DNA from: Deltaproteobacteria bacterium
Lineage (GTDB): Bacteria > Bdellovibrionota_B > Oligoflexia > Oligoflexales > Bog-1112
Direction: 5' to 3'
Length of the DNA stretch: 43,927 nt
Assembly: GCA_016186945.1 (NCBI GenBank)
Contig: JACPKR010000027.1
Location: 1-43,927, forward strand
Made by a program: the position numbers and the translations under genes. Positions 3,833-37,440 of the stretch are shown here, one piece after another (the stretch's first letter is position 1; every line of letters begins with the position of its first letter). Below the pieces are notes generated by a model that was not told where the DNA came from, did no database searches, and saw only the letters and a list, made by a program, of their open reading frames with translations.

Positions 3833-4020
3833 ATAGTATTCAAGATAATCATTTGGGGACAAACTTTTTGAAAAAAGTTATTTCCCCAAACCCCTTTTTA
3901 AAAACTTCAATATTTAAAGTTTTTTGGGGGGAGGCGTGGAGGGGAACTTTTTTTCAAAAAAGGTCCTCTCCACAAATTCTTTTTCTCAAATCCACAAATT
4001 CTTTTTCTCAAAGACTATAG
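3833..4020 (+). repeat. Family B multi-hairpin repeat, copy 1
   Basis: The element runs from TAGTATTCAAGATAATCA to CTCAAAGACTATAG. It contains nested complementary blocks (GGGGACAAAC with GTTATTTCCCC, and GTGGAGGGGAACTTTTT with AAAAGGTCCTCTCCAC) and long A/T runs. This copy has a 22-bp tandem duplication (3969-3990 and 3991-4012). Its right end overlaps the last codons and stop of the peroxiredoxin gene on the minus strand. Other copies are at 34344, 36578 and 37312. Confidence 0.85.
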
Positions 4021-6410: not shown

Positions 6411-6476
6411 GCAAGGAGGTGGTTGGGATCCAGCAAGGAGGTGGTTTGGAGGAAACTGCGCAGCTGGTTCCTCCAA
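6411..6476 (+). repeat. A1 repeat with a truncated tandem copy
   Basis: A partial copy (GCAAGGAGGTGGTTGGGATC, 6411-6430) is followed by a complete A1 hairpin module (6433-6476). It lies between the divergent exonuclease and glutaredoxin genes, about 95 nt before the glutaredoxin ATG. Confidence 0.85.
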
Positions 6477-6886: not shown

Positions 6887-7023
6887 TAATGCGTAAGCCA
6901 CTTGGGGCAAGGAGGTGGTTTGGAGGAAACTGCGCAGCTGGTTCCTCCAAGAAATCCCTTGGGGGAGCGACGGTTCCCTCGCCCCCCCAAACCCCCCTCT
7001 CCCTATTTGCCCCAAGTGGCTTA
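6887..7023 (+). repeat. Family A composite repeat, near full-length
   Basis: Terminal inverted repeats TAAGCCACTTGGGGCAA (6894-6910) and TTGCCCCAAGTGGCTTA (7007-7023) are perfect over 17 bp. The left end extends further to GTAATGCG, while the right extension is lost. Inside are A1 (6907-6950) and A2 (about 6960-7003). It occupies the entire gap between two co-directional genes, and the next ATG is only 9 nt after its end. Confidence 0.9.
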
Positions 7024-8673: not shown

Positions 8674-10563
8674 ATGCTTCGCATGACTACGTGCTGTTTG
8701 CTTCTGTTCACATTTTTCGCTTGTGCAAAAAAAGGACCTAAGGAACGTTTAGCTGGAGAACGAAGAATTCAAGAACCTAGAGACCTATCCGACCCGACGC
8801 TTGCCGATGAAATGCTCCAATTCGAGCCTCTCAATCCTAAGGAATTTGAGATGCAAGGTTTTGTGTTCGGAGAGAGCCTAGGGGAAATGTCCGTGCCGAG
8901 GATTTTCGTCTACAACTTGCACCAGGACTACACAGAGTACAAGGCTTGCAAAGGCCAGGACTGCCAGGAAGGCGCCTTTCCGACGCCCGAAGCTTACCTC
9001 CCCCTCGATACCGGCAAGTGGGAAGTGCGCATCCGTGGCTGTTTGTCATACGGACGTACGGAAACTGATGAGAAGCAATGCGGCCCTTGGTCACAGCCCA
9101 TGTCCTACGACCAAGAAAATCAGGTTCCCCCGGAATTCCTCGCAAGCATTCAAGCTTTCAACCGGGCCAACATGGATGTCTTCGCAAACGGGGAAAAAAT
9201 CTATCGCACGTTCTACGACTTCATGGTCGCCGGCTCTCAGTGCGAACATCCTCCCTACGCCGATGGTAGTGAAGAAATCTTGGCAGCTTCCACTGCTAAC
9301 ATTTTTGCACAAGCCCTCAACGAAGGAGCCTACCCTTTCGAAGAATACCAAATAAAAGAGGAGGAAGAAGGACTGGCACTGGCTGGCAAAACAGGAAGGA
9401 GTCCGGTCTGGACCACAATGTGGGGGCTGTTCCTGCATTACAATTCCCTGCAAGGAACCCCATTTCTCGATCGAAGCACCCTGACGTTTTCTGAGTGGGA
9501 AAACATCAAATTTTGGGAAACGTCGAAGGATGAACGGCAGCTACGAAAAGCACGTAAACAACTGGAAGCCAAGAGGCGAAAGAAGGTTCAAGCTGACGTA
9601 ATCACTCGCATCGACGCTCAGCTCGATGTTCTCAACCGAAGGATTGCAGAGTTAGTCACGACTCGCCTCAAAGCCATCGAGGCGAAAATCCAGAAGGGTG
9701 AGACGCTGACCGGAGCGGACGAACAGTATCTAAAAGCCAGAAAGGAGGAGATCCCTGAGGACCAGTTTAAGCGTCTCCTTGCAGAGAACAAAACGATCAC
9801 GATCAAACAGCGCGTCGCCGAAATTGGCACGATGGACTTCCCGAAGAAGGTTGATCTCGCAGAACTGAGGGCCTTTAGGAAATCACATCCCGAGCTTGTG
9901 TCTCAAGACTTGATCGACAGGGTTGAGGCAACTAGGAAAACGGCAGTAGCAGCAAAAAAGATGGAGGCTGACAGAATAAGAGGCGTTCAAAAAAGAGCTA
10001 TCAAGAAATGGCTCGCGGAAACGAGAAGCCGACGAATTCAGAGACGGACTTTTGACACGAGGAGAATTACCGAACGCACGCAGGAGCTGGGAGAAATTAA
10101 AGCTTATCAACCAATAAATATAGCAAAACGGACTCTAGCTGAGATGAAGGCACAAGCCAAGACCCCTGATCCTGTCCTTCAAAAATCTGAAGCCGGGTTG
10201 GTAAAATCTAGTCCTGACATGAAGGCAAAAGCACCGACCCCTGATCCTGTCCTTCCACGATCTGAATTTGTTGACGTACCGCTTGACGAACCCGATTCCG
10301 CATTGGGAAAGCCCACAGGAGGTTATAGTCGGGGCACTGCGCTGAAAGCCGGGTTAGGAATTGCTGCTATGCTGGGAGCAACAGCTGCGGTTGGTGCTGT
10401 TGTGTATGCTTACAGTCTCAGCGAGAACCCTACGTGCGAGGGGCAGGCTGTCGGGGATTTCAGGCGCTCGCTTGACGGGATCAAGGCGGACAATGAGCGA
10501 GTCCTTGATGAAAGAGACGCTGGGATGGACGAAATGGAACGTGTAGGGCTAAGCGTCGACTGA
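8674..10563 (+). CDS. Large putative lipoprotein with coiled-coil region, unknown
   Basis: This 629-residue protein has the N-terminus MLRMTTCCLLLFTFFACAKKG, a signal peptide with a plausible lipobox Cys. Residues about 30-160 look like a Cys-containing beta-rich domain (GKWEVRIRGCLSYG, QCGPWS). A long, charged, helical coiled-coil-like stretch rich in Lys, Arg and Glu follows. Near the C-terminus a peptide of about 17 residues around TPDPVL occurs twice (DNA 10140-10191 and 10215-10266, period 75 bp). A hydrophobic segment (GLGIAAMLGATAAVGAVVYA) then precedes an acidic tail. ATG 8674 has GGAGA about 6 nt upstream; an in-frame GTG at 8662 is the alternative. I do not recognise the family. Confidence 0.75.
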   Translation: MLRMTTCCLLLFTFFACAKKGPKERLAGERRIQEPRDLSDPTLADEMLQFEPLNPKEFEMQGFVFGESLGEMSVPRIFVYNLHQDYTEYKACKGQDCQEGAFPTPEAYLPLDTGKWEVRIRGCLSYGRTETDEKQCGPWSQPMSYDQENQVPPEFLASIQAFNRANMDVFANGEKIYRTFYDFMVAGSQCEHPPYADGSEEILAASTANIFAQALNEGAYPFEEYQIKEEEEGLALAGKTGRSPVWTTMWGLFLHYNSLQGTPFLDRSTLTFSEWENIKFWETSKDERQLRKARKQLEAKRRKKVQADVITRIDAQLDVLNRRIAELVTTRLKAIEAKIQKGETLTGADEQYLKARKEEIPEDQFKRLLAENKTITIKQRVAEIGTMDFPKKVDLAELRAFRKSHPELVSQDLIDRVEATRKTAVAAKKMEADRIRGVQKRAIKKWLAETRSRRIQRRTFDTRRITERTQELGEIKAYQPINIAKRTLAEMKAQAKTPDPVLQKSEAGLVKSSPDMKAKAPTPDPVLPRSEFVDVPLDEPDSALGKPTGGYSRGTALKAGLGIAAMLGATAAVGAVVYAYSLSENPTCEGQAVGDFRRSLDGIKADNERVLDERDAGMDEMERVGLSVD

Positions 10564-11935: not shown

Positions 11936-13202
11936 GAAACTGTCCTTCTATAATCATAAGTTTTTTCTGGGTGCTTTCGCATCGCTTTTTATATATCAGC
12001 CACTTTTTGCAGTTTTGACTCCGGAAAAAGTTCCGGCGAGGGTCATCCACTTACCCGTCCAGATCCCCATAGAGGGTCTTACAGTCGAGTCACCCATAGA
12101 AATCCTTTCTGACCAGAGTGGAAAGGTAGTCACGACACTCGACGGACGCTTACAGAAGGGGCTTCAAGACTTCCTGACTCGCAACTATAACCCCATTGCA
12201 TCGGTGGTTGTGGTCGATGCCGTCACGGGGCATGTCCTAGCTCTAGTACAGGGACGAGACCCGCGCAAGTGGGGATCGAGTGTACACACTGCGCTTTACA
12301 CCGGCTTTCCTGCTGCTTCGGTGTTCAAGATCGTCCCGGCCGCAGCAGCTTTGCAGGTCGCAAGTGTGAATCCGCAGGCTATAACGGGCCTGACGGGAGG
12401 ATGTGCAAACGTCAATCCCAAAGGGGTCTGGTTACGCAACACCCCCCCTCATAAGCACCAGATGATAAGTTTGGAGAGGGCTTTTGCATTTTCCTGCAAC
12501 AGTTTCTTCGCGAAACTTGCTGTCCAGCAGGTAGGCATGGGTCTGATCCAGAAGTACGCAGAAAGATTCGGCTGGGGTGCCTCTATCCCAGCCGACTTTT
12601 TTATACCTGAGAGTCCGATTCATATCCCCGAGGCTGCGTCCTCCGACATTCAGACAGTGGGTCGCTTTGCAGCCGGTTTTGGCACGGTTGGTCTTAGTGC
12701 CGTACATGCTGCCTGGTTAAACCTTGCCATCGCAAACGACGGAAAGCCTATGCCCTTGCGCATATTTGCCCGGGATGGGTTTTCTCCACTGACAGCGGCA
12801 AGGGAAAATTTCTTCGACGAAGAAACGAGCCACAAAATGCGCCTCATGATGCACAAGACTGTAAGTTATGGCACAGCTCGTGGCACCTTCCGTAAACGCC
12901 GCTACCGAAAACTTGTCGAGCACGTCGGGGGGAAAACCGGCTCCCTTACCGTACACACTCCCCAAGGTCGTATAACATGGTTTGCCGGGCTTATGCCCAT
13001 CGACAAACCTGAAGTGATCGTAAGTTCAGTCGTTCTTAACGACGGAAACAAATGGCACATTCGAGGTCCTGACCTTGCGGCAGAAGCACTCTGGCTCTGG
13101 TTCCAACAAAGGAATTACCAATTTGAAAAAGATCGTCTAGAATCAATTACAAAGTTGGACCCCGACAATCCTGAAAGACTCGTGCAGAAGGTAAAATTTT
13201 GA
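11934..13202 (+). CDS. Class B-like penicillin-binding transpeptidase
   Basis: This 422-residue protein has a signal peptide (hydrophobic stretch to about residue 26). Its penicillin-binding transpeptidase domain shows all three active-site motifs: SVFK (S129-K132), SCN (S187-N189) and KTG (K334-G336). It would cross-link peptidoglycan in the periplasm. It lacks the long dimerisation domain of FtsI/PBP2, so it is a short divergent type; MrdA/FtsI-like activity and beta-lactam binding are inferred. Its ATG shares CATG with the start of the divergent LptF/G-like gene, so its promoter must lie in that gene or its true start is downstream. Its stop overlaps the next gene's start. Confidence 0.85.
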   Translation: MKLSFYNHKFFLGAFASLFIYQPLFAVLTPEKVPARVIHLPVQIPIEGLTVESPIEILSDQSGKVVTTLDGRLQKGLQDFLTRNYNPIASVVVVDAVTGHVLALVQGRDPRKWGSSVHTALYTGFPAASVFKIVPAAAALQVASVNPQAITGLTGGCANVNPKGVWLRNTPPHKHQMISLERAFAFSCNSFFAKLAVQQVGMGLIQKYAERFGWGASIPADFFIPESPIHIPEAASSDIQTVGRFAAGFGTVGLSAVHAAWLNLAIANDGKPMPLRIFARDGFSPLTAARENFFDEETSHKMRLMMHKTVSYGTARGTFRKRRYRKLVEHVGGKTGSLTVHTPQGRITWFAGLMPIDKPEVIVSSVVLNDGNKWHIRGPDLAAEALWLWFQQRNYQFEKDRLESITKLDPDNPERLVQKVKF

Positions 13203-15049
13203 GCCGCTTTCGAGATGCTATCCTGCAAAAAAAGCCCCTACTTTTCGACGGTGCGATTGGAACAGAACTTTACAATCGCGGAATTTTCATCAACCGCTGC
13301 TTTGAAGACGCGAACCTTTCCAGCGAAGAGCTGGTGCTTGCTGTCCACCGTGACTATTTGAAGGCCGGTGCAAACATCATCACCACCAACAGCTGGGGAG
13401 CTAATCGCATTAAGTTGCGGGAGCACAATCTTGACGACAAACTGAAGCTCATCAACATAAAGGCCGTCGAATTAGCTCGAAAAATCGCACAGGACGACGC
13501 TTTTGTAGCGGGAAGTGTCGGCCCGCTTGGGGTGCGTATAGAACCCTTCGGACCGACATCGTTTCAAGAGGCACGTGCGTTTTTCGCTGAACAGATCGCT
13601 GCTCTCGTGGAAGGGGGTGTCGACCTGATTTCTCTCGAAACCTTCGCAGACCTTTCAGAAATCCAGCAGGCAATCCTTGCTACGCGCGATGTAGCTCCCG
13701 AAATTCCTCTCATCGCCAGCGTTACCATGACACAGGAGGGGAAATCTCCTCTCGGCACCCCCATACCGTGGATCATGCAAAAACTGGATGAGTGGGAAAC
13801 AGATGTCCTCGGGCTTAACTGTTCCGTCGGCCCCCAACCCATGATGTCAGCGGTGGAAACCATTCGCAACCTTGTCAAGAAGCCACTCTGCATTCAACCG
13901 AACGCAGGCCTTCCCAAATCCGTGGAAGGACGACAGATCTACATGTGTACACCGGAGTACATGGCCCACTTTGCGAAGGAATTCCTGAACGCAGGAGTAC
14001 TGATCGTCGGAGGTTGCTGCGGAACCACACCCGAACATATCCGAGCGATGTCAAACTCCATCCGCTTCTCCCGAGCCTTTGTAAGGGTTAGCGTCGAAGA
14101 GAAACCTAAGCAGGCAAGGGAAGCGGAGCTTGTCGAAGAACAACCTCGCGTTCCCTTTGCGGAAAAATCTAAGTGGTCTAGAAAAATAGCAGAGGGCGTC
14201 CAGGTAAGCTCTGTCGAACTTCTTCCCCCAGCAGGTATTGACCCAGCGAAGATTATAGAAAGCTCTGTCCAAATTCATAAAGCAGGGGTTGACGCGATCA
14301 ACATCCCCGACGGCCCTCGAGCAAGCGCCCGTATGAGCGCCATCCTGACAGCCGTCATGATCGAGCAAAAGGCAAAAATCGAAACCGTCCTCCATTACAC
14401 CTGCCGTGATCGCAACTTGCTGAGCATGCAGTCCGACCTCCTAGGCGCGCAAGCGATCGGCTTACGCAACATGCTGCTCGTCACCGGCGATCCTCCCAGA
14501 CTGGGAAGCTACCCCAACGCTACGGGAGTCTTCGACGTCGACTCGATCGGACTTACAAACATGGTCTACCGCCTCAACGGTGGCATCGACTTAGGAGGCC
14601 GTTCGATCGGAAAGCCTGCTTCCCTTTCCATCGGCGTAGGCGTCAACCCCGTCCACCACGACTTTGCGTTCGAGATGAACCGCTTCGCCTGGAAAGTGGA
14701 TGCCGGTGCGGAATGGGCCATCACCCAACCCGTCTTCGATTTGAAGGCACTCTACCGATTCCTGGAATACATCGAAGCAAAGAACATTCGCATCCCCATC
14801 ATCGCAGGCATCTGGCCCCTTATCAGTTATCGCAACGCTGTTTTTATGAACAACGAAGTCCCCGGCGTGGTGATTCCCACAGATATCATGGAGAGAATGG
14901 CCGCCGTCAAAGATCCGGAAGATTCCAAGAAAGTCGGCGTTGAAATCGCGCGGACAATGGTTGAAGAACTTGGCAAATCCGTCCAAGGTTTCCAGGTCTC
15001 AGCACCCTTTGGCCGCATCGACCTCGCCCTAAACGTGCTGGGGAAATAG
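13199..15049 (+). CDS. yitJ: Bifunctional homocysteine S-methyltransferase / 5,10-methylenetetrahydrofolate reductase (YitJ type)
   Basis: This 616-residue fusion has an N-terminal homocysteine methyltransferase barrel (about 1-290) with zinc ligands C208 (GLNCSVGP), C273 and C274 (GGCCGTTPEH). The C-terminal FAD-dependent methylenetetrahydrofolate reductase barrel (about 325-616) includes TCRDRN, LLVTGDPPRLGSYP and the TQPVFD segment. It would make methionine from homocysteine and reduce methylene-THF, as described for Bacillus YitJ-type proteins. The TTG start at 13199 overlaps the PBP stop (TTGA), so translation is probably coupled. The pairing with a PBP gene is metabolically unexpected. 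No cobalamin domain is present. Confidence 0.92.
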   Translation: MSRFRDAILQKKPLLFDGAIGTELYNRGIFINRCFEDANLSSEELVLAVHRDYLKAGANIITTNSWGANRIKLREHNLDDKLKLINIKAVELARKIAQDDAFVAGSVGPLGVRIEPFGPTSFQEARAFFAEQIAALVEGGVDLISLETFADLSEIQQAILATRDVAPEIPLIASVTMTQEGKSPLGTPIPWIMQKLDEWETDVLGLNCSVGPQPMMSAVETIRNLVKKPLCIQPNAGLPKSVEGRQIYMCTPEYMAHFAKEFLNAGVLIVGGCCGTTPEHIRAMSNSIRFSRAFVRVSVEEKPKQAREAELVEEQPRVPFAEKSKWSRKIAEGVQVSSVELLPPAGIDPAKIIESSVQIHKAGVDAINIPDGPRASARMSAILTAVMIEQKAKIETVLHYTCRDRNLLSMQSDLLGAQAIGLRNMLLVTGDPPRLGSYPNATGVFDVDSIGLTNMVYRLNGGIDLGGRSIGKPASLSIGVGVNPVHHDFAFEMNRFAWKVDAGAEWAITQPVFDLKALYRFLEYIEAKNIRIPIIAGIWPLISYRNAVFMNNEVPGVVIPTDIMERMAAVKDPEDSKKVGVEIARTMVEELGKSVQGFQVSAPFGRIDLALNVLGK

Positions 15050-16029: not shown

Positions 16030-16096
16030 GCAAGGAGGTGGTTTGGATCGTGGCAAGGAGGTGGTTTGGAGGAAACTGCGCAGCTGGTTCCTCCAA
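16030..16096 (+). repeat. A1 repeat with truncated tandem copy
   Basis: A partial copy (GCAAGGAGGTGGTTTGGATC, 16030-16049) is followed by a complete A1 module (16053-16096), the same arrangement as at 6411. It lies between two plus-strand genes, about 78 nt before the next ATG. Confidence 0.85.
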
Positions 16097-20630: not shown

Positions 20631-20642
20631 GTGTTCCCCCTG

Positions 20643-20767
20643 GGGCAAGGAGGTGGTTTGGAGGAAACTGCGCAGCTGGTTCCTCCAAGAAATCCCGGGG
20701 AGGCGACGGTTCCCTCACCCCCCCACCCCCCCCTCTCCCTATTTGCCCCAAGTGGCTTACGCATTAC
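20643..20767 (+). repeat. Family A composite repeat, left terminus truncated
   Basis: A1 (20645-20688), A2 (about 20694-20737) and an intact right terminus TTGCCCCAAGTGGCTTACG...AC (20743-20767). Only GGGGCAA of the left terminus remains. It lies between two plus-strand genes, ending about 60 nt before the PilT-like start. Confidence 0.88.
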
Positions 20768-20828: not shown

Positions 20829-22658
20829 ATGCAACGGTTTAAGGAGATCTTGAAAGATTCCATCAAAACGGGAGCTTCCCATCTCGAACTTAAAGCAGGA
20901 GGGGTGCCCACACTTCACAAGGAAGAGCATAAGAAGGAACTTCAACAGCATGGTGTCGTAGGGAAAGAGTGGCTGGCCGGTATCGCGAAGATGCTCTTTG
21001 CAGGAGGGTTTGAATCTTTAGAAAGCGGGCAAGCACAACAGAGCAAGCTATCTATTCCCAGAGTCGGTGAACTGCTCCTCTTGGCCAAAAGTCGGGGGGG
21101 AATGTCCATTACCGTCTACTTTCCACCGAACGGGGAGACGCTTTTCAAAAAACACTGGGAGCAGTCCCTGGCCGAAGCCGCCGAAAAGCCTCCCGTAAGC
21201 ACAGCTGGCGAAGGTTTCGAGAAACCCCAGACGATCGGGTTCGTGCCAAGTGCAGACTTCTTCGCTGCTCCTGAAGAATCTGGAGGAGAGGCTGTTCCCT
21301 TGCCCCCCGACACAAAACAACCACCTGACTCCGTGGGCTTGGATATAGAATTTGGGGGAGCGACGGTTCCCTCACCCCCCCAAGCCCCCCTCTCCCTGGA
21401 GGAGGAGGTTCCCTCGCCCCCCCAAGCCCCCCTCTCCCTAAAGGACTCCGTGGGCTTGGATATAGAATTTGGGGGAGGCGACGCTTCACTCGCCCCCCCA
21501 GCCCCCCTCTCCCTAAAGGACTCCGTGGGCATCGACTTTTCAATTGAGATCCAAGGCGAGGTTGCGACGGGCGGGGGTCAGCTCCCGATAGATAGTCTTT
21601 TGAAAAATATGGTGAGCAGACGATCGAGTGACCTCCACCTCACTTGTGGGCACTTGATCGCTTTTCGGGTGGACGGCGACATTGTACGAGAAGAGAAAGG
21701 ACCTCCGCTATCTCCTGCGATGCTTGAACACCTCCTACTCCCGATTATCCCGGACTTTAAGCGTGCCCAGTTTGCAAAGTTCTGGGACGTGGACTTCGCC
21801 TATGCCTTGGCTGGAGTGGGACGTTTTCGGGTCAATCTTTTCCGCGATAATCACGGCGTAGGGGCGGTGTTCCGCTATATTCCCGACAAAGTCCTGACTC
21901 TGGAAGAATTGGGAGCGCCCGATGCGCTCTTCAACTTCTGTAAGATGGCGAAGGGTCTCGTCCTTGTGACGGGTCCGACAGGAAGCGGGAAGTCGACCAC
22001 ACAAGCCGCGATGATCGACTTTATAAATGAGGCCCGCCACGAGCACATTATAACCATCGAAGATCCCATTGAGTTCGTCCATCCCCAAAAGAAGTGCCTT
22101 ATCAACCAACGGGAAGTGGGGAAGCACACGGAGTCGTTTTCCCAAGCCTTGCGAGCAGCACTACGGGAAGATCCTGATGTCGTGCTGGTGGGCGAGCTGC
22201 GCGACCTGGAAACAACTTCCATCGCGCTTGAAACTGCCGAGACTGGTCACCTGGTCTTCGGCACCCTTCACACAAACACCGCGGTTTCGACAATAGACCG
22301 TGTCATAGACCAGTACCCAACGGAACAACAGAGGATCATCCGCAACACGCTTGCCGCATCCCTCCGCGGTGTAGTCACCCAGGTTCTCTGCCGGAAAAAG
22401 GAGGGCGGGCGCTGCGCAGCCTATGAAATCCTCGTGACGGATGATGCCGTCGCCGCCATGATCCGAGAGGGGAAAAATCATATGATCCCTAGCCACATGC
22501 AGACACAGAAAGCGGCTGGAAACCGCCTACTCAACGAATCCCTTCTCAAGTTGGTCATGGAGGGTTTAGTTGACTACGAAGAGGCCTGGAAAAAGTCTAT
22601 AAATAGGAAGGAATTCGAGGAGACCTTGAAAAAGAAGGGCGGCAGCCGGGCGGCATAG
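20829..22658 (+). CDS. PilT-type secretion/retraction ATPase with duplicated N-domain and repeat-derived linker
   Basis: This 609-residue protein has a C-terminal PilT-like hexameric ATPase (about 245-609): N-domain SRRSSDLHLTCG, arginine region VGRFRVNLFRDN, Walker A GPTGSGKST (G382 to T390), Asp box IITIEDPIEFVH, Walker B DVVLVGELRDLET, His box GTLHTN. PilT is normally about 350 residues and powers type IV pilus retraction. Residues 1-110 look like a second, degenerate PilT N-domain (SIKTGASHLELKAGG). Residues about 174-237 are encoded by three A2 repeat copies and read PSPPQAPLSL twice. ATG 20829 follows GTGAGG. No other pilus gene is nearby. Confidence 0.88.
   Translation: MQRFKEILKDSIKTGASHLELKAGGVPTLHKEEHKKELQQHGVVGKEWLAGIAKMLFAGGFESLESGQAQQSKLSIPRVGELLLLAKSRGGMSITVYFPPNGETLFKKHWEQSLAEAAEKPPVSTAGEGFEKPQTIGFVPSADFFAAPEESGGEAVPLPPDTKQPPDSVGLDIEFGGATVPSPPQAPLSLEEEVPSPPQAPLSLKDSVGLDIEFGGGDASLAPPAPLSLKDSVGIDFSIEIQGEVATGGGQLPIDSLLKNMVSRRSSDLHLTCGHLIAFRVDGDIVREEKGPPLSPAMLEHLLLPIIPDFKRAQFAKFWDVDFAYALAGVGRFRVNLFRDNHGVGAVFRYIPDKVLTLEELGAPDALFNFCKMAKGLVLVTGPTGSGKSTTQAAMIDFINEARHEHIITIEDPIEFVHPQKKCLINQREVGKHTESFSQALRAALREDPDVVLVGELRDLETTSIALETAETGHLVFGTLHTNTAVSTIDRVIDQYPTEQQRIIRNTLAASLRGVVTQVLCRKKEGGRCAAYEILVTDDAVAAMIREGKNHMIPSHMQTQKAAGNRLLNESLLKLVMEGLVDYEEAWKKSINRKEFEETLKKKGGSRAA
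21353..21514 (+). repeat. Three in-frame A2 repeat copies inside a coding region
   Basis: Copies at about 21353-21398, 21405-21440 and 21470-21514 carry the GGTTCCCTC(A/G)CCCCCC and CCCCCTCTCCCT blocks of A2. A 34-bp flank starting GACTCCGTGGGCTTGGATAT recurs at about 21327 and 21444, so the unit spread by local duplication. All are translated in the PilT-like protein. Confidence 0.85.
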
Positions 22659-22773: not shown

Positions 22774-22977
22774 ATGCCAGGTGTGTACAGCAAACCAGGT
22801 GAACCTCTCGATAGGATTATGCGTGCCTTTAAGAAACAAGTTGAGAAGGCCGGGGTCATCGGAGACCTCAAGAAACGAATGCACTACGAGAAACCTTCCA
22901 TCCGACTGAAAAAGAAATCCATTGCCGCAAGAAAGAGACGTCTGAAACAGCTGCGTAAGTTCGGTCAAGCCGAGTAG
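22774..22977 (+). CDS. rpsU: Small ribosomal subunit protein bS21
   Basis: This 67-residue, very basic protein has the bS21 pattern: N-terminal GEPLDRIMRAFKKQVEKAG, central KKRMHYEKPS and the C-terminal KKSIAARKRRLKQLRK helix. It joins the 30S platform near the mRNA 3'-end/anti-SD region and affects initiation on SD-bearing messages. TAGGAG lies about 10 nt before the ATG. It stands after the PilT-like gene with a gap of 115 bp. Confidence 0.95.
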   Translation: MPGVYSKPGEPLDRIMRAFKKQVEKAGVIGDLKKRMHYEKPSIRLKKKSIAARKRRLKQLRKFGQAE

Positions 22978-24629: not shown

Positions 24630-24673
24630 GCAAGGAGGTGGTTTGGAGGAAACTGCGCAGCTGGTTCCTCCAA
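24630..24673 (+). repeat. A1 hairpin repeat
   Basis: Complete A1 module on the plus strand, 6 nt after the solute-binding protein stop and 68 nt before the YggT ATG. Confidence 0.85.
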
Positions 24674-29007: not shown

Positions 29008-29710
29008 TTTACAAGCAAAAGGGGTGTCAGTTGCGGGCTTGACGCTGGCCTGTTCTGACACCTCAGCGTCCCCTATAAACCTGTGTTCGTTCAACAAGAA
29101 GGTCGACGACTTTCTATCAGGAGGTTTCCCGATAGGTTCGTTAATAGAGTGGGGTGTGCCTATGGGGAAAGAAGGAAGGCAGCTGCTTTTTCCCTTCCTG
29201 GCCAACGTCACGCAGGGACGGCAATTTCCTCCGTCTTTTGTGCTGTGGGTCAACGGGTTTAAGGAACTGAAAGTCTTTCCTCCCGCATGGTTTGTGAGGG
29301 GCGTGGTACCGGGCAAGGTGCTCTTTGCCCAAAGCTGTGATGTGCTCCATGACTTGAAGCAGGTGTTTCTAAGCCCCGTGTTCAAAGTGATCGTGCTCGA
29401 CACCCCCCAATATTTGTCACGGGAGGATTGTTTGTTTCTCAAGAAGAAGGCGCAGAGGCATAAGCAGATTCTGTTCCTTCTACGCCCCTACCGTCTCAAC
29501 AACGAGAAGGGCAACGTCGCATGCAGTGTACGCATGAACATCTGGCGTGATCAACAGAAAGACACGCTGGTGGCACATGTCATCAAAGGATTAACGGATC
29601 GTAAGCTTTTCTTGGAGGAACCAGCTGCGCAGTTTCCTCCAAACCACCTCCTTGCCACAGATGGCGAAGTAAGGAAGTCAAATGCGTGTTTACATAGCTT
29701 TGGAATGTGA
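28979..29710 (+). CDS. imuA: ImuA-like (RecA/SulA-related) translesion synthesis accessory protein, repeat-encoded C-terminus
   Basis: This 243-residue protein has a degenerate RecA-like core (DDFLSGGFPIGSLIEWG, SFVLWVNG, FKVIVLDTPQYLSREDCLFL, ILFLLRPYR). Position between lexA and imuB supports ImuA, which helps ImuB and DnaE2 in damage-induced mutagenesis. TTG 28979 has TAGGGAAG 4 nt upstream and overlaps lexA by 29 nt; starts at 29024 (GTG) are possible but poorly placed. The last 35 residues include LEEPAAQFPPNHLLA, translated from an antisense A1 repeat, and overlap imuB by 29 nt. Confidence 0.8.
   Translation: MGCSDALPLNLQAKGVSVAGLTLACSDTSASPINLCSFNKKVDDFLSGGFPIGSLIEWGVPMGKEGRQLLFPFLANVTQGRQFPPSFVLWVNGFKELKVFPPAWFVRGVVPGKVLFAQSCDVLHDLKQVFLSPVFKVIVLDTPQYLSREDCLFLKKKAQRHKQILFLLRPYRLNNEKGNVACSVRMNIWRDQQKDTLVAHVIKGLTDRKLFLEEPAAQFPPNHLLATDGEVRKSNACLHSFGM
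29612..29655 (-). repeat. A1 hairpin repeat translated as the ImuA tail
   Basis: A full 44-bp A1 copy on the minus strand lies within the 3' end of imuA, 26 nt before the imuB ATG. It is the only A1 copy antisense to both flanking co-directional genes. Its plus-strand reading frame gives LEEPAAQFPPNHLLA. Confidence 0.88.
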
Positions 29711-34343: not shown

Positions 34344-34505
34344 TTTGAGAAAAAGAATTTGTGGAGAGGACCTTTTTTGAAAAAAAGTCCCCCTCCACGC
34401 CTCCCCCCAAAAAACTTTAAATATTGAAGTTTTTAAAAAGGGGTTTGGGGAAATAACTTTTTTCAAAAAGTTTGTCCCCAAATTGATTATCTTGAATACT
34501 ATAAA
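34344..34505 (-). repeat. Family B multi-hairpin repeat, copy 2
   Basis: Full copy, inverted relative to the other three. It starts 3 nt after the dnaE2 stop with TTTGAGAAAAAGAATTTGTG and ends TTGAATACTATA, 3 nt before the convergent stop at 34508. It fills the whole intergenic gap. The stem GTGGAGAGGACC...CCCTCCAC is nearest to dnaE2. Confidence 0.9.
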
Positions 34506-36577: not shown

Positions 36578-36743
36578 TTAGTATTCAAGATAATCAACTT
36601 GGGGACAAACTTATTGAAAAAAGTTATTTCCCCAAGCCCCTTTTTAAAAACTTCAATATTTAAAGTTTTTTGGGGGGAGGTGTGGAGGGGAACTTTTTTT
36701 CAAAAAAGGTCCTCTCCACAAATTCTTTTTCTCAAAGATTATA
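36578..36743 (+). repeat. Family B multi-hairpin repeat, copy 3
   Basis: From TTAGTATTCAAGATAATCAA to CTCAAAGATTATAG. The right end is about 20 nt from the stop of the minus-strand membrane/HAMP gene. With flanks it occupies the 253-bp gap between two minus-strand genes. Confidence 0.9.
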
Positions 36744-37290: not shown

Positions 37291-37440
37291 GTAATGTGTA
37301 AGCCACTTGGGGCAAGAAAGTTCTTTCCCCCACCCCTTTTCAAAAACTTCAATATCTAAAGTTTTTTGGGGGGAGGCGTGGAGGGGAACTTTTTTTCAAA
37401 AAAGGTCCTCTCCACAAATTCTTTTTCTCAAAGACTATAT
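37291..37440 (+). repeat. Family A left terminus fused to family B copy 4
   Basis: GTAATGTGTAAGCCACTTGG then GGCAA (37291-37315) is the family A terminus. It runs directly into a family B element lacking its left third (CCACCCCTTTTCAAAAAC...CTCAAAGACTATA). The right end supplies the TGA stop of the minus-strand KtrA-like gene. It fills the gap between 37277 and 37428. Confidence 0.87.

Follow-up and report, generated by a model that had tools for sequence, protein, structure and literature searches.

How a PilT-type ATPase gene came to encode an unusually long N-terminal region, part of it spelled by a repeat that recurs through the genome, and what this region may do for the motor, are the questions raised by the pilT gene described here. 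The gene lies in a stretch of 43,927 bp (contig JACPKR010000027.1, positions 1 to 43,927), hereafter the window, from a draft genome of 2.66 Mb in 76 contigs that is 91% complete. Its reading frame is open from GTG 20820 or ATG 20829 to 22658 on the forward strand. Because orthologues start at a matching M-[EQ]-x-[FL]-K, ATG 20829 is the better start, and from there the gene (20829..22658, forward strand) encodes 609 amino acids with matches to TIGR01420 pilT_fam (E 9.6e-132) and Pfam T2SSE.

The motor core of this protein is intact. Its canonical N-domain and ATPase domain (21588..22613, forward strand) match the PilT/PilU family TIGR01420 over residues 254-595, scoring 439 bits where the cut-off is 319, and span positions 2-343 of the 343-position model. 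The full set of motor motifs is there: Walker A (GPTGSGKST), Asp box (IEDPIE), Walker B (REDPDVVLVGE), His box (GHLVFGTLHTN) and IREGK, the last within AVAAMIREGK, a variant of the AIRNLIRE motif. In the predicted model the canonical N-domain reaches Z values of 15-18 to PilT/PilU structures. The identity as a PilT-type motor is well supported, and the surplus of about 245 residues noted in an earlier sequence-only reading corresponds to about 250 additional N-terminal residues ahead of the core. The long PilT has N-domain, ATPase core and motifs in common with the PilT/PilU retraction ATPases (TIGR01420; PDB 2EWV, 3JVV, 5FL3, 6OJX, 9N32), but differs from them in a degenerate N-domain and a linker of 51-345 residues placed in front.

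It differs further in being encoded apart from other pilus genes. No pilus gene of the kinds searched for was detected elsewhere on the long-pilT contig, in agreement with the sequence-only reading, and the genome search for pilB, pilC and pilQ proposed there located a pilB-pilT-pilC operon on contig C14, and contigs C52 and C54 carry PilQ-like and PilM-like genes, the PilQ-like matches scoring slightly below the curated cut-off. In Bdellovibrio, the gene of a PilT that possesses Walker A and B motifs lies outside the pilus operon, and PilT1 has been reported without a Walker A motif (PMC4237445). The long PilT is likened here, by description and as an analogy, to Bdellovibrio PilT2 (Bd3852, PMC4237445), a Walker-motif PilT off the pilus operon beside a second PilT in the pilB operon; the operon PilT of the host genome possesses Walker A, unlike Bdellovibrio PilT1. 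Downstream, the long pilT is adjoined by rpsU (ribosomal protein S21; 22774..22977, forward strand; Pfam S21, E 1.9e-17), which is the neighbour in three relatives of the family as well. A bifunctional homocysteine S-methyltransferase/methylenetetrahydrofolate reductase gene (13199-15049) is also found near this pilT in G007, G017 and G022, which indicates that part of the neighbourhood is old.

The first part of the extension had been read as a second, degenerate PilT N-domain spanning residues 1-110. Profile comparison bears this out and sets its extent at residues 1-118 (20829..21182, forward strand), a region termed N1 here. Aligned with hhalign, the N1 profile matches the PilT N-domain profile with a probability of 84% (E 7.4e-6); 30 column-shuffled profiles and one reversed profile, used as controls, reach at most 1.5%. 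The four best matches of N1 among all PDB sequences are PilT at their N-domains, with marginal E values of 0.008-0.14, and among 2,645 ORFs of other phyla, 83 of them PilT-like, the top 35 matches are all PilT N-domains, in register. The duplication of the N-domain is established at the level of sequence. The domain was not found in Pfam, and a plasmid search with N1 yielded no match. Two AlphaFold runs were based on alignments of only two and three sequences. The model of N1 alone has a low-confidence pLDDT of 53; its best structural match (VIA, Z 5.1) is to a PAS-containing protein, not PilT, and PilT chains are among its weak Foldseek matches. The full-length model (three sequences) has a mean pLDDT of 47 and is poor even over the ATPase core; within it, the order of secondary structure elements in N1 is like that of the PilT N-domain.

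The long form is not peculiar to the host genome and spans most of one bacterial order, probably Oligoflexales. A long PilT is present in about 30 further genomes of this order, where the open frames measure about 570-830 residues. With a profile built from residues 1-120, the domain was found in 41 out of 58 genomes in the phylum, almost all of them from this order, a count that includes some matches to ordinary PilT N-domains. The linkers of 28 family members measure 51-345 residues, are of low complexity and possess no conserved sequence. A search of the literature for long PilT or pili in this order returned nothing directly relevant.

In G004, G005, G013 and G020, N1 and linker also precede C-terminal regions whose scores do not identify them as PilT ATPase, and a Pfam search of these regions gave no significant domain. 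In G004, the gene of the N1 protein directly follows two pilT genes, and the C-termini in G004 and G005 are alike (29% over 106 residues). By eye, the region after N1 and linker in these two (L171 1016-2287 in G005, L173 3257-4311 in G004) is receiver-like; Pfam support for a response-regulator receiver was not found there. The G004 N1 gene is split over two frames. In L174 757-3576 (G020) and L175 1177-3642 (G013), N1 is followed by a very long acidic linker and then the C-terminal region, in proteins of 940 and at least 822 residues, respectively. A degenerate PilT ATPase in G013 and G020 was considered and is unconfirmed, with best full-sequence E values of 0.02-0.15.

Since N1 has been kept in the order while the linker has not, and since both are found on other C-termini, they may constitute a separable binding module, for which the domain context suggests a role in docking. 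It is rather unlikely that N1 is instead a functionless remnant of a duplicated N-domain, carried harmlessly on a neutral linker that collects repeats. The divergence of N1, with 18-28% identity among members, would agree with such a remnant, as would an unconserved linker that tolerated a repeat; however, N1 persists in most genomes of the order and with other C-terminal regions; had it been idle, it would be expected to be missing from some of these genomes or contexts.

The linker of the long PilT extends from about residue 119 to 251 (about 133 amino acids; 21183..21578, forward strand), is of low complexity and presumably disordered, with a pLDDT of 22-29 in the three-sequence model, itself poor over the ATPase core. 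According to the sequence-only reading, a linker of about residues 174-237 was encoded by three repeat units, called A2, and a 34-bp direct repeat. The repeats are present as described; the linker is considerably longer, and its repeat-bearing part comprises residues 167-233, with the three A2 copies (47-bp segment) in residues 175-229. On the forward strand, copy 1 of the 34-bp repeat (21327..21360) encodes DSVGLDIEFGG. A2 copy 1 (21352..21398; FGGATVPSPPQAPLSL, residues 175-190) aligns over 47 bp to the genomic consensus with 3 mismatches and belongs to subfamily A. A2 copy 2 (21407..21440), truncated at its left end, encodes VPSPPQAPLSL and fits subfamily A weakly. Copy 2 of the 34-bp repeat (21444..21477) is 100% identical to copy 1, and A2 copy 3 (21469..21516; FGGGDASLAPPAPLSLK) belongs to subfamily B, whose consensus scores 39 against 36 for A. 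A third, partial copy of the 34-bp repeat, GACTCCGTGGGC (21519..21530), forms the start of the pre-PilT motif DSVGIDFSIEIQG. In total, the linker contains three A2 copies and two and a half copies of the 34-bp coding stretch.

The 34-bp repeat does not belong to the genomic element. It looks like a local tandem duplication, because DSVGLDIEFGG resembles the motif DSVGIDFSIEIQG in front of the PilT domain. The reading frame is maintained throughout: in A2 copy 3 the extra G of subfamily B (+1) is offset by a 1-bp deletion. All three copies in pilT share a G at one site, where about 53 other sampled copies carry A, C or T instead; this suggests local amplification rather than chimeric assembly. 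The presence of a subfamily B copy beside subfamily A copies is left unexplained by a simple tandem duplication. No inverted repeats or target duplications flank the A2 copies in pilT. These data fit capture, local amplification, some exchange with other copies and selection for an open frame. Very little likelihood attaches to an artefact of the draft assembly by which genomic repeat copies were joined into the gene. The assembly is in 76 contigs, the repeats measure 34-47 bp and two subfamilies stand side by side, as might be expected of such an error; yet the frame is intact across three copies, including the offsetting +1/-1, the G common to them is unseen elsewhere, and the sequence on either side corresponds by homology to a single gene in relatives, three of which have rpsU downstream of it.

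The source of A2 is a mobile element. A2 is the right half of a palindromic element of 143-147 bp, whose full-length copies possess 25-bp inverted repeats, GTAATGCGTAAGCCACTTGGGGCAA, at both ends. Fourteen of 23 distinct full-length copies (each counted once though listed on both strands) are flanked by target duplications of 8-9 bp. With up to 3 mismatches allowed, a genome-wide search finds the A2 core 169 times and a reversed control pattern 6 times, an excess far beyond chance. Outside pilT, 28 of 32 sampled A2 copies adjoin the other half of the element, and four of 32 stand alone. The element is a MITE: short length, palindromic structure, inverted repeats, target duplications and high copy number are all shared with bacterial MITEs. 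No parent transposase was found for it in the families searched, IS66 and Y1. One copy, which has lost its left inverted repeat, is located upstream of the long pilT (20640..20767, forward strand). The whole element was found in the host genome only, among 20 genomes. Such an element is hardly likely to have begun in the pilT linker and then spread, for although gene and genomic copies have about 47 bp in common, most A2 copies sampled outside pilT adjoin its other half, full-length elements carry inverted repeats and target duplications, and the pilT genes of relatives are without A2 sequence.

As to the parentage of the MITE, its GTAA ends and 8-bp duplications presumably point to the IS66 family; an origin from IS66 was considered and set aside, as no DDE_Tnp_IS66 match was present in the 91% complete draft. 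An origin from a RAYT/REP system was rejected as well: there are four matches to Y1 (IS200/IS605-type) transposases, with no A1 or A2 near the two complete ones. Two of the four have TnpB-like ORFs beside them. A1, the left half of the element, is itself palindromic (about 45 bp) and occurs alone at 651-682, 6443-6474, 6917-6948, 16063-16094, 24640-24671, 29614-29645 and other positions, as well as in L145 and L146. Two further genera of the family, G005 and G007, carry many copies of it, and it may be an older, independent REP-like repeat. The window contains two further repetitive features. A second family of about 140 bp, unrelated to the MITE, is found in both orientations at 3853-3990, 34344-34483, 36599-36736 and 37295-37432, and a 53-bp direct repeat (10139-10191 and 10214-10266, 75 bp apart) could encode EMKAQAKTPDPVLQKSE-like peptides and is possibly another repetitive protein stretch.

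The comparison with orthologues that had been proposed shows genes of the same order with a linker and without the repeat at this position. Their loci lack A1 and A2, except for a short stretch resembling A1 in L171, which lies outside the N1 gene. A relative of the same genus has a fragment of a proline-rich linker without A2; the contig ends before what follows. Because orthologues lack the repeat and its source is a MITE with inverted repeats and target duplications, the direction was from repeat to gene, and the earlier claim that a genomic repeat became protein sequence is supported. The repeats are not the origin of the linker itself, because members of the order share both the additional N-terminal region and a long linker of unconserved sequence. 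By this comparison, A2 appears to have replaced or extended part of a pre-existing spacer rather than to have created it.

Among 55 sampled A2 sites, a sample and not a full count, the three in pilT are the only ones recognised as internal to a gene. Other long ORFs that contain A2 in the same frame (contigs C12, C6, C48, C14 and C71) were rejected as internal captures, since A2 lies at their 5' end, mostly before the likely start. At L036 (aspartokinase), L025 (Maf) and L018 (methyltransferase), the MITE is located at the 3' end of the gene, and the C-terminus is apparently replaced or extended by a peptide common to them, RRWFGGNCAAGSSKK. Rickettsia palindromic elements, about 150 bp long, are a known case of in-frame capture within protein genes (review PMC10969869). 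As had been suggested, the capture in pilT resembles these: the insertion is in frame, in an ORF whose relatives are without the element. It differs in its non-Rickettsia host and in involving half-element fragments only, three of them within a single linker; whole-element insertion across many genes, as in Rickettsia, was not seen among the 55 sampled sites. What is new to known in-frame capture is the half-element in the linker of a motor protein, with repeat-free relatives for comparison.

Taken together, the protein is probably an orphan, long-form PilT retraction ATPase, with N1 as a tethered docking or regulatory domain and a linker built in part from captured MITE fragments. The motor part would operate like that of other PilT. 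Each subunit would carry a flexible arm, tipped by N1, before the normal N-domain and ATPase domain, and the ring of a hexamer would be surrounded by six N1 domains on their arms. N1 would bind a partner in the pilus machine, possibly the face of the ATPase domain that is contacted by the normal N-domains, and binding would recruit or restrain the motor. Within hexamers of PilU and PilT, a subunit's N-domain packs against the ATPase domain of its neighbour (PMC13142100), so N1 could compete for such contacts or extend them. Three MITE fragments would have been captured in frame and amplified together with the neighbouring 34-bp coding stretch; the spacer would tolerate them, since length, flexibility and an intact frame are all that is required of it.

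The capture is a clean case, outside Rickettsia, of mobile-element DNA taken up in a protein spacer. Element family, copy number, frame correction and repeat-free relatives are all visible, so that it can be asked where in proteins such capture is tolerated. The long form is a variant, present across the lineage, of a molecular motor that has been studied in depth, and it leads to a simple prediction that can be tested. More tentatively, and with somewhat less than even likelihood, N1 and its disordered linker may be an unrecognised docking module of the type IV pilus motors of this order that links motor control to other outputs. If so, the same arm would be found on a PilT ATPase or on a separate non-ATPase protein (as in G004, G005, G013 and G020), and a single binding domain that descends from the N-domain of the motor itself would tie the control of the motor to other outputs.
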